A stretch of 47,952 nt of DNA from Clostridia bacterium (lineage in GTDB: Bacteria > Bacillota > DTU086): positions 1 through 47,952 of the forward strand of contig JAAYIF010000050.1 in NCBI GenBank assembly GCA_012523575.1, given 5' to 3'. The position numbers and the translations under genes were made by a program. This document shows, piece by piece, positions 7,231 to 47,288 of this stretch. Below the pieces are notes generated by a model. It did no database searches, was not told the origin of the DNA, and was given only the letters and a program-made list of their open reading frames with translations. The first letter of the stretch is position 1, and each line of letters begins with the position of its first letter.

Positions 7231-8133
7231 ATGGCCTTTGTTCCCGCTTATCTCAAATTAACGGAAGGGGAGTTGAAGGAAAAAGTAAAACAGGCCTTTG
7301 AGCTACAGGAAAAATGCATGTTGTGTCCCAGGGAATGTGGAGCCGAGAGGGGAAAGGGGCAGAAAGGAGCCTGCAGAGCTTTAAATACGGCGAAAATAGC
7401 AAGCTACGGTCCCCATTTTGGAGAAGAAAGGCCTTTGGTGGGTACCCACGGCTCGGGGACCATATTCTTTTCGTACTGCAATTTAGAATGCATTTTTTGC
7501 CAGAACTGTGACATCAGCTGGGCGGGTTATGGACAGGAGGTTTCCACCCAGGAGCTTGCTGAAATAATGCTTAAATTGCAGAAAAGGGGCTGTCATAATA
7601 TAAATCTGGTAACCCCTACGCACTATGTGCCCCAGATCCTTGAAGCCCTATTCACTGCCAGAAAAAGGGGGCTCAGCCTTCCTTTGGTTTATAACTGCGG
7701 AGGGTATGAATCCGTTGAAACTTTGAAAATACTTGATGGAGTTATTGATATCTACATGCCTGATGTTAAATACGATGATCCTGAAATTGCCCAAAGGTTG
7801 TCAGGGGTTAAGGATTACCCCCAAAGGGTAAAGGAAGCTTTAAAGGAAATGCATCGACAAGTGGGAGATCTTCAGGTAGATGAAGAAGGGATTGCAAAAA
7901 GGGGACTTATTATACGCCATCTAGTGCTTCCGGAGGATTTTGCGGGAACTGAAAAAATTATGAGATTCATTGCTGAAGAACTGTCACCCCAAAGCTTTGT
8001 AAATATTATGAGGCAGTACCATCCCGTTCACAAGGCCTGGGATTATCCTCCCCTCAACAGATCCGTTACCAGGCATGAATATGAAAGAGCCCTTGAGGTT
8101 GCTGAAAAAGTGGGAATCACTCCCCGCTCATAA
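7231..8133 (+). CDS. Radical SAM protein, PflX type (COG1313; pyruvate-formate-lyase-activase-like)
   Basis: A 300-residue radical SAM protein. The cluster motif is CNLECIFCQNC, about residues 87-97; an upstream CMLCPRECG with a further Cys (KGACRA) may bind a second Fe-S cluster. The following GCHNINLVTPTHYVPQ, YNCGGYES and DVIDIYMPDVKYD-like blocks match the PflX group, close to glycyl-radical activases but without a known substrate. Start ATG has GGGGGGATGGG upstream. No glycyl-radical enzyme is nearby, so an activase role is unsupported; it stands alone before the polyamine cluster. Confidence 0.85.
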   Translation: MAFVPAYLKLTEGELKEKVKQAFELQEKCMLCPRECGAERGKGQKGACRALNTAKIASYGPHFGEERPLVGTHGSGTIFFSYCNLECIFCQNCDISWAGYGQEVSTQELAEIMLKLQKRGCHNINLVTPTHYVPQILEALFTARKRGLSLPLVYNCGGYESVETLKILDGVIDIYMPDVKYDDPEIAQRLSGVKDYPQRVKEALKEMHRQVGDLQVDEEGIAKRGLIIRHLVLPEDFAGTEKIMRFIAEELSPQSFVNIMRQYHPVHKAWDYPPLNRSVTRHEYERALEVAEKVGITPRS

Positions 8134-8352
8134 TTTTTTAGAAATTATCTTGAAATAAAGAGTCAAAGTGTAGTTTTGCGAAATATGACCAATATGTCCT
8201 TTTTTTAATTCGTAATGCCATAATTCTTTTTAATTTGTTTCATTACGGAACATTCCTTTGTTTCCAAACAAAAAACTTTAATATACAACGTTATACTTTT
8301 TTATTGACAATTTTTCACCCTGTGTGTTTTTGTTTTTTACAGACAATCAGCG

Positions 8353-8476
8353 CAGTGCTCCGTTTTAAAGCTGCTCGTTTCCAGCATCGGGCTTAAAAAA
8401 GCTCGGTGCTTAGTTGAAGCGGAGTGCTGAACAACTGGTCGCTTCTCTGGGCGGCGGGAGCGAGCGGTTTTTTTTT
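8353..8476 (+). promoter_or_regulatory. Structured attenuator leader upstream of bpsA (candidate riboswitch)
   Basis: Stem P1, CAGTGCTCCG (8353-8362) with CGGAGTGCTG (8420-8429), encloses a 12-bp hairpin, AGCATCGGGCTT (8383-8394) with AAGCTCGGTGCT (8399-8410). A terminator follows (8435-8476). GAAGCG (8416-8421), sharing bases with P1, can pair with CGCTTC (8440-8445) of the terminator arm, giving a competing antiterminator. P1 formation would favour termination. A TTGACA lies at about 8304 but without a convincing -10 box. The remainder of the 408-bp gap (8134-8352) is AT-rich and shows no gene. Confidence 0.6.
8435..8476 (+). terminator. Intrinsic terminator in the bpsA leader
   Basis: CTGGTCGCTTCT (8435-8446) pairs with GGGAGCGAGCGG (8456-8467), with one G-G mismatch, followed by nine T (8468-8476). 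It is 65 bp before the bpsA start and over 300 bp after the preceding gene, so it is better read as an attenuator than as the end of the radical SAM transcript. Confidence 0.75.
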
Positions 8477-8541
8477 GCAAAATATCTTGTGGAAAAAGAT
8501 TAAAAGCGGCAATTAAACGCTGCCAAAGGAGGGGACATAGC

Positions 8542-9618
8542 ATGAAACGTATGGAAGCGGAAAAGCTGTTTGCTGACCTGGTTGAAGGGACTAGACAGCA
8601 GACGCCGGTGCCGTTTATAGAGCGGGATGCGGAACGGGTGCTGGCGGCTATCCAGACAGCTGCTGTTTTTTGGGAAGTTGTGCGGCTGAGTAATGTTCCG
8701 ATGCGCTTTTTATGCGATTTCTGCAACCAGCTTATTAACGGGGATTTGGTAGTTGCTTCCGATGGGAAGCTTAGCTTAACGGATAAAGGCAAAGAGCTGG
8801 TTGAAGCCCTTGAAATAGCTCCCGTTCAAGAGGGGATCTGTAATGCCTGCGAAGGGCGGGGTATTGATATTTCAAAATTCTACGGCAGTCTAATTGAAAA
8901 ATATTCAGAAATATGCAAAGACCGTCCGGAAGCCATACAGGATTATGACCAGGGATATGTTACAGAGGCAACGTCCCTTGCTAGTGTTTCCTATGCCTGG
9001 CAGCGGGGAGATCTTGAGAATAAAGAGATTATTATCCTGGGGGATGATGATTTAAAAAGCATTGCCGCTGCACTGACCGGAGCTCCCAAAAGGGTACTGG
9101 CATTGGATATTGACACAAGACTAATTGAATTTATCAATAAAGTTGCTGAAAGGGAAGGATTAAAAAACCTTAAAGCAGTTTGGCATGATTTAAGAGAACC
9201 CCTTCGTGAAGAATGGTTAAAATCCTTTGACACCTTTATGTGCGATCCCCCGGAGAGCATTGTGGGACTTAAGGCTTTTGTGGAGCGGGGTATCATGTGT
9301 CTTAAAGGGCGGGGATGCGCCGGTTATTTTGGGCTTACCCATGTGGAAGCCAGTTTGAGCAAATGGGCAAAGGTCCAAAAGTTTTTACTGGAAAAAGGGG
9401 CGGTTATCACAGATCTGAGGGAAGATTTCAGCAGTTATGTTAATTGGGATTATATAAAAGAAATGCGCTCCTGGTCATGGTTGCCCACTAAAGCCCTTCC
9501 GGAACATCTGTGGTATTGTTCAGCCTTCCACCGTATAGAGCTGTTGAAGGATGTGGAAGTGGAAAATCCTCGCCTGGGAGAAAACATTTTCGATGATGAG
9601 GAAGTGGCGACCAATTAG
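8542..9618 (+). CDS. bpsA: N4-bis(aminopropyl)spermidine synthase (branched-chain polyamine synthase, DUF43)
   Basis: Transfers aminopropyl groups from decarboxylated SAM to the secondary amine of spermidine, giving branched polyamines that stabilise nucleic acids at high temperature. At 358 residues it matches the archaeal/thermophile family length. An N-terminal winged-helix-like part (FWEVVRLSNVPMRFLCDFCN) contains Cys residues, with a further CNAC about residue 97. It is followed by a Rossmann domain with IILGDDD (164-170), the acidic ALDIDTRLI block, and the family signature CDPPES (234-239). ATG is preceded by AAAGGAGGGG. It heads the polyamine cluster and has a terminator-containing leader. 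Identification is strong; activity at N4 is inferred from the family. Confidence 0.92.
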   Translation: MKRMEAEKLFADLVEGTRQQTPVPFIERDAERVLAAIQTAAVFWEVVRLSNVPMRFLCDFCNQLINGDLVVASDGKLSLTDKGKELVEALEIAPVQEGICNACEGRGIDISKFYGSLIEKYSEICKDRPEAIQDYDQGYVTEATSLASVSYAWQRGDLENKEIIILGDDDLKSIAAALTGAPKRVLALDIDTRLIEFINKVAEREGLKNLKAVWHDLREPLREEWLKSFDTFMCDPPESIVGLKAFVERGIMCLKGRGCAGYFGLTHVEASLSKWAKVQKFLLEKGAVITDLREDFSSYVNWDYIKEMRSWSWLPTKALPEHLWYCSAFHRIELLKDVEVENPRLGENIFDDEEVATN

Positions 9619-11550: not shown

Positions 11551-11590
11551 CATACTATAAACAAATTATCTTGGTGAATTTCGTGGAGTA

Positions 11591-11769
11591 TCTGCTGCAG
11601 TTTGCCAAACAACTTGATGAACGCCGATTAAAACCGGGAGGTGCGAGCAGAAGATGAGCGCCAGCCAGTCCCTCGCATGGAAGCCGAATTGGGGCGGCCC
11701 GGCTTCGTCCATAACCCTGCGCATAGAGATGTCCGGCGTGAGTTCGCAAGTCAAGAAAACTGCAGCAGA
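11591..11769 (+). repeat. Dispersed inverted-repeat element, copy B
   Basis: A 179-bp full-length copy with perfect 13-bp terminal inverted repeats, TCTGCTGCAGTTT and AAACTGCAGCAGA. Compared with copy C the G:C in the middle of the repeat is replaced by A:T on both arms, so pairing is kept. It lies between speE and speB. An open frame across it (MRAEDERQPV...) also appears in copy D, but this reflects repeat conservation and is not called as a gene. Confidence 0.88.
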
Positions 11770-11795
11770 TACCCTTTGTCAAAAAGTTGTAGTAT

Positions 11796-12655: not shown

Positions 12656-12707
12656 TGAGACATTTCAGTATTTAGACAAATATCATCTTATTAAATTCCA
12701 TATGGTT

Positions 12708-12862
12708 TCTGCTGCGGTTTGCCAAACGACTTAACGAACGTCGATTAAAACCGGGAGGCACGAGCAGAAGATGAGCGCCAGCCATTCTCTCGCATGGACG
12801 CCGAATAGAGGCGGCCTGGTTTTAACCGGCGTGAGTTCGCAATTAAAGAAAACCGCAGCAGA
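12708..12862 (+). repeat. Dispersed inverted-repeat element, copy C
   Basis: A 155-bp copy with perfect 13-bp terminal inverted repeats, TCTGCTGCGGTTT and AAACCGCAGCAGA. It shares the internal blocks with copies A, B and D but lacks the CATAACCCTGC segment. It is in the same orientation as copy B, on the other side of speB. Confidence 0.88.
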
Positions 12863-12881
12863 CACCTTTGGCAAACAATCT

Positions 12882-47033: not shown

Positions 47034-47060
47034 CCCCGCCTTTATAAGGCGGGGCTTTTT
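47034..47060 (+). terminator. Intrinsic terminator after groESL
   Basis: CCCCGCCTT pairs with AAGGCGGGG around a 3-nt loop, followed by CTTTTT. A degraded likeness occurs on the other side of repeat copy D (47289-47321). Confidence 0.9.
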
Positions 47061-47074
47061 GTTGGCAAAGAGTT

Positions 47075-47253
47075 TCTGCTGTAGTTTTCTTGACTTGCGA
47101 ACTCACGCCGGACATCTTTAAGTGCAGGGTTATGGGCAAAACCGGGCCGCCCCAATTTGGCGTCCATGCGAGAGGCTGGCTGGCGCGAGTGTCCTGCTCG
47201 CGCCTTCCTGTTTTTACCGTCGTTAGTTAAGTGGTTTTGCAAGCTGCAGCAGA
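47075..47253 (-). repeat. Dispersed inverted-repeat element, copy D (opposite orientation)
   Basis: A 179-bp copy on the minus strand. Plus-strand ends are TCTGCTGTAGTTT and AAGCTGCAGCAGA, near-perfect inverted repeats. It contains an 8-bp internal hairpin (GGCGCGAG/CTCGCGCC when read on the minus strand) that is shorter in the other copies, with the same CTCGCATGG and GATGTCCGGCGTGAGTTCG blocks. It lies between the groESL terminator and the isocitrate dehydrogenase gene. Confidence 0.87.
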
Positions 47254-47288
47254 GACTTAATAAATTATTTTGCAGGTCTGTTGAAAGT

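Follow-up and report, generated by a model that had tools for sequence, protein, structure and literature searches.

The window analysed here is a stretch of 47,952 nucleotides from contig C49 of the 1.64-Mb draft genome of a Clostridia bacterium. It carries an operon for branched-polyamine synthesis, bpsA-argDC-speD-speE, which is followed by an agmatinase/arginase family gene and preceded on the same strand by a further gene at 7231-8133 (Table 1). The gene order of the operon is identical in the sister species, Clostridia bacterium 41_269, which serves as the comparison throughout.

Table 1. Features of the bpsA leader and its operon, in coordinates of the window
Feature	Start	End	Strand	Basis or remark
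Conserved upstream block, probable promoter/operator	8251	8339	+	85/89 identical to sister species; promoter role presumed
P1 5' arm, 15 nt	8353	8367	+	Predicted folds
Unpaired P1/P2 joining strand, holds GCTGCTC (8370-8376)	8368	8382	+	Pairing option: terminator loop or terminator 3' arm
P2 hairpin, 12 bp, loop AAAA (8383-8394/8399-8410)	8383	8410	+	Predicted folds
P1 3' arm, contains GAAGCG 8416-8421 (alternative antiterminator strand)	8415	8429	+	15/15 identical in sister species
Intrinsic terminator stem-loop, 13 pairs, one G/G mismatch, 9-nt loop	8433	8469	+	Scan and shuffles; one sister-species change, in loop
T9 run	8468	8476	+	Sequence; identical in sister species
bpsA, branched-chain polyamine synthase	8542	9618	+	PF01861, E 4.3e-95
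argDC, pyruvoyl-dependent arginine decarboxylase	9707	10171	+	PF01862
speD, S-adenosylmethionine decarboxylase	10224	10619	+	PF02675
speE, spermidine synthase	10629	11489	+	PF01564
Agmatinase/arginase family gene (speB-like)	11835	12641	+	PF00491

A match to bpsA was found in 8 of 61 genomes, that of the window included. The nearest BpsA proteins outside the genus (L013-L022) share 49-51% identity with it and belong to records of Bipolaricaulota/Acetothermia, Caldisericota, Chloroflexi and Neomarinimicrobiota, and elsewhere in the window's phylum the identity is 41% at best. Neither of the family's two other genera has argDC, speD or bpsA. Since the closest BpsA relatives thus lie outside the phylum and the genes are missing from the remaining family, the protein comparison suggests that the polyamine genes may have been gained horizontally. 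A 16S rRNA gene, sought to judge the growth temperature, was absent from the assembly.

The stretch between speE and the agmatinase gene contains an intergenic repeat of about 190 nt (11584-11772), further copies of which lie at 12682-12875 and 47059-47257. It has long terminal inverted repeats (TCTGCTGCAGTTT...AAACTGCAGCAGA), a folding z of -3.5 and flanks that are a near-duplicate of TGCAGCTTAGGC.GTACAT. The repeat gave 47 matches in its own genome (some of them pieces; 72-100% identity), 21 in the sister genome, where the site between speE and agmatinase is empty, and 1 in another genus; the Rfam scan of the window returned no match for it. It has the appearance of a MITE-like mobile element.

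The earlier note had described the bpsA leader as a 10-bp stem, P1, enclosing a 12-bp hairpin and followed by an intrinsic terminator with nine T. Both helices are present where it had placed them, with the P1 strands CAGTGCTCCG (8353-8362) and CGGAGTGCTG (8420-8429), but the predicted folds lengthen P1 from 10 to 15 bp by pairing TTTTA (8363-8367) with TGAAG (8415-8419). As a result, the entire GAAGCG strand lies inside P1. The folding energy of this 77-nt domain (8353-8429) is predicted at -39.2 kcal/mol compared with a shuffle mean of -20.3 kcal/mol (z -6.7), and none of 500 shuffles was as stable. The corresponding domain of the sister species, at -33.7 kcal/mol (z -4.9), was likewise equalled by 0 of 500 shuffles.

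The terminator is located as claimed, with its nine T at 8468-8476 and a stem that is longer than described (13 pairs). Its G+C-rich stem directly abuts the T run, an arrangement also found in the sister species, and its score was reached by none of 300 shuffles of 8340-8541. A simple terminator scanner with a loop limit of 8 missed it because the loop measures 9 nt.

Comparison with the sister species places the strongest constraint in two parts of the leader. In bpsA itself, 59 of 126 four-fold sites (47%) and 58% of third codon positions are identical. Against this background, the conserved upstream block is nearly unchanged, and 62 of 63 positions are identical across 8415-8477, a span that covers the P1 3' arm, the terminator and the T run. 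The P1 5' arm retains 12 of 14 compared positions with one gap, its two changes (A to G and G to A) keeping the pairing, and the P1 interior (8368-8414) retains 35 of 47. Set against the four-fold sites, these identities mark the leader as a real and selected element with a putative premature terminator, selection being strongest on the promoter-like block and on 8415-8477. A 3' arm that is frozen opposite a changing 5' arm would fit a second pairing partner for the 3' arm. The helices gain no significant covariation support from these two sequences: the 7 substitutions across all helices cost 2 pairs, a result that 30% of random placements equal or better (P 0.30).

Within the upstream block, TTGACA (8304-8309) is followed by a weak extended -10 element consisting of TGT (8325-8327) and TTTTGT (8328-8333; TATTGT in the sister species), from which transcription is predicted to start near 8339-8341. 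A sigma-70 promoter scan passed no site at its threshold. The same block holds a 22-nt direct repeat within 8290-8347, its two units (GTTATACTTTTTTATTGACAAT / GTTTTTGTTTTTTACAGACAAT, 77%) lying 36 nt apart, which is a possible tandem operator. Further downstream, a small hairpin (GCGGC...GCUGC, 8505-8523) is situated just 5' of the bpsA ribosome-binding site, and by eye its pairing is kept in the sister species.

The position of this block bears on two rival explanations. The terminator could simply insulate the operon, whose promoter would then lie downstream of it, from read-through of the upstream gene, which is indeed on the same strand. However, the terminator stands 300 nt beyond that gene and after the promoter-like block with its 85 of 89 identical positions, and a simple terminator has no need of a P1 domain, which makes insulation a rather improbable account. 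Alternatively, promoter, 8340-8476 and terminator may form a stand-alone non-coding RNA of about 137 nt, with bpsA expressed by read-through or from another promoter. A promoter-like block, a compact fold and a strong terminator would together form a full unit, and conservation peaks in its terminator part. Both explanations are confronted with the stretch between the terminator and bpsA (8478-8541), which is poorly conserved (46/62 identical, 74%) and has no promoter-like match. Moreover, among the four genomes of the class, argDC and speD are present in two, the leader is found in the same two, and the other two have neither, as expected of a cis element. We therefore regard an independent small RNA as unlikely, although it deserves some weight.

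The speF type represents leader-peptide attenuation, in which case a short translated frame would be required. Such frames exist, for example one of 12 codons starting with TTG at 8330 that is similar in the sister species, but no ATG frame of at least 4 codons occurs in 8291-8480, no ribosome-binding site is seen by eye before the short frames, and the peptide is not rich in Arg/Orn codons. This type of control is thus highly improbable here.

An antiterminator exclusive with both P1 and the terminator had also been proposed. The underlying pairing, between GAAGCG in the P1 3' arm and CGCTTC (8440-8445) in the 5' arm of the terminator, is encoded in both species. Folding with the antiterminator enforced revealed a companion helix, in which GCTGCTC (8370-8376) pairs with GGGCGGC (8449-8455) in the terminator loop. 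GCTGCTC is identical in both species and the loop of the sister species reads GAGCGGC, so that the helix has 7 pairs in both and the sole loop change converts U-G to U-A. Together with P2, the two antiterminator helices are predicted to fold into a three-way junction. A 6-bp match to the terminator arm turns up in 13.8% of domain shuffles, so that the 6-bp complement by itself is weak evidence; the nested combination of both matches is reproduced by 3.2% of them and is suggestive only.

Although the pairing stands, it is not predicted as a populated state: the antiterminator probability does not rise above 0.004 at 37 °C, or above roughly 0.07 at 70 °C. At transcript lengths of 115-130 and 37 °C, the P1 state is ahead of the antiterminator by 7.6-11.3 kcal/mol in the window and by 2.3-5.7 kcal/mol in the sister species. 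In ligand-free predictions for both species, the P1 pair probability at 37 °C is 0.93-1.0 up to a transcript length of 132, and P1 is predicted closed at 37, 60 and 70 °C before the 3' side of the terminator is made. Furthermore, the P1 3' arm can find its partner once it is made, with the antiterminator partner emerging about 20 nt later, and from this order P1 should also win kinetically. At the end of transcription, the terminator of the sister species has a probability of 0.99 at 37 °C.

In the window species, a 16-bp long-range pairing of 8367-8382 with the 3' side of the terminator has an equilibrium probability of about 0.69 at 37 °C and about 0.42 at 60 °C. It was considered as a functional antiterminator and rejected: it dominates the leader fold of the window species but does not persist in the sister species (<0.001 at 37 °C). 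Given this competing pairing, the predicted default state of the window species is less clear than that of the sister species.

These predictions do not support the logic of an OFF riboswitch that the earlier note had read from the leader. In such a switch, a ligand (spermidine, a branched polyamine, SAM or decarboxylated SAM, an identity that we purely infer) would stabilise P1 and block the antiterminator, so that the terminator forms. The gene context fits such end-product feedback, the alternative pairing is encoded in both species, and the same logic is known from the established spermidine riboswitch, which is described in the accessible text of its report as a variant of the SAM-I aptamer with a terminator, an alternative antiterminator and a ligand-stabilised P1 (Salvail et al. 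2023, PMC10853860). However, a 15-bp P1 that is predicted to close on its own and to meet its partner early implies that termination would need no ligand. In addition, the terminator part is more conserved than the P1 interior, the reverse of what is expected for a ligand-binding core, and no Rfam class matches. Consequently, we consider an OFF riboswitch improbable.

The distribution of the leader is narrow. A covariance model (R1) detected it in 2 of 398 genomes of the phylum, and among 17 sources (L008 was left out) only in the window and L012. Additional homologue searches covered the own genome, bpsA relatives in genome contigs (11 loci) and plasmids; neither these nor the searches of the class (4 genomes) and the phylum (398) returned a leader beyond the sister species. 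For the leaders of bpsA orthologues, in which the earlier note had looked to conserved P1 and terminator as a check, both elements are kept in one sister species, but no terminator was found in 14 other bpsA leaders (L013-L022 and L003-L006; the partial matches L007 and L008 were left out), while the detector recognised both positives. On this evidence, the leader appears to be restricted to the genus.

Combined, the best reading is an attenuator-like leader of an ordinary kind, confined to the genus; the observation itself is confirmed and its interpretation as a riboswitch/attenuator is partly supported, with the OFF logic disfavoured. With moderate confidence, we take 8340-8476 to be the 5' leader of the bpsA-argDC-speD-speE operon and an attenuator with termination as its default. 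From the features above we infer a promoter position, a functioning terminator, an antiterminator and a regulator, which would work together as follows. Once RNA polymerase has left the promoter (near 8304-8339), the P1/P2 domain would close immediately and lock away GAAGCG, the strand able to open the terminator, whereupon the terminator (8433-8476) would form and most transcripts would stop. For read-through, something would have to open P1 or sequester its 5' strand, which could leave the 3' arm available to CGCTTC and let GCTGCTC pair with the terminator loop, yielding the three-way-junction antiterminator. Since P1 is predicted to be favoured both energetically and kinetically, termination is the predicted default and any regulator would have to open P1; the putative regulator might be a protein, a small molecule or a physical condition.

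A bolder interpretation, to which we assign a low probability, is that the leader represents a new class of RNA switch controlling branched-polyamine synthesis in an isolated clostridial genus. Termination would be its default, and the 15-bp P1 would be opened by a shortage of branched polyamine, by heat or by an RNA-binding protein; the resulting three-way-junction antiterminator would hold the loop of the terminator as well. A working leader would offer a concrete and testable point of control over compounds that aid thermophiles in living at high temperature, and would reveal whether RNA, to which polyamines widely bind, can serve as a specific polyamine sensor.

With respect to known systems, the leader matches no Rfam class, in agreement with the earlier note, which did not recognise a known class. 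Rfam returned no gathering hits in the whole window, and a permissive scan of 8200-8600 gave only two chance hits with E up to 5; a match to MIR4359 was dismissed as chance (20.3 bits against a cut-off of 75). No T-box model was among the Rfam hits for the window or for 8200-8600. A whole-genome search for SAM-I (RF00162) gave two places, neither of them in this leader; these matches, L029 and L030 (contigs C17 and C51), score 98.1 and 97.1 bits.

As far as titles and the beginnings of abstracts in the searched literature indicate, RNA-level control of branched-polyamine synthesis has not been described, and the accessible text of a 2026 review of branched polyamines does not describe RNA control of bpsA. 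Like the odc1 and potE motifs (PMC8632094), the leader is a structured RNA candidate tied to polyamine genes; in the accessible text of that report, odc1 is alpha-proteobacterial, with one extended stem and a pseudoknot, and potE comes from Veillonella, and neither has an architecture in common with the leader. It also resembles the unclassified 5' premature terminators and attenuators of an earlier survey (PMC2965389), which include a potABCD leader, in that a 5' UTR terminator is syntenic with its gene, whereas the present leader occurs in two genomes of one genus and the main text of the survey contains the terms 'speD' and 'polyamine' 0 times. A further comparison is with the spermidine riboswitch, on the accessible text of its report (PMC10853860). 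The aptamer there is a SAM-I four-stem junction, whereas the leader here consists of one long stem and one hairpin without an RF00162 match; yet both precede polyamine genes (speB, speD and speE in the riboswitch) and both combine a terminator with an antiterminator that uses the 3' shoulder of P1.
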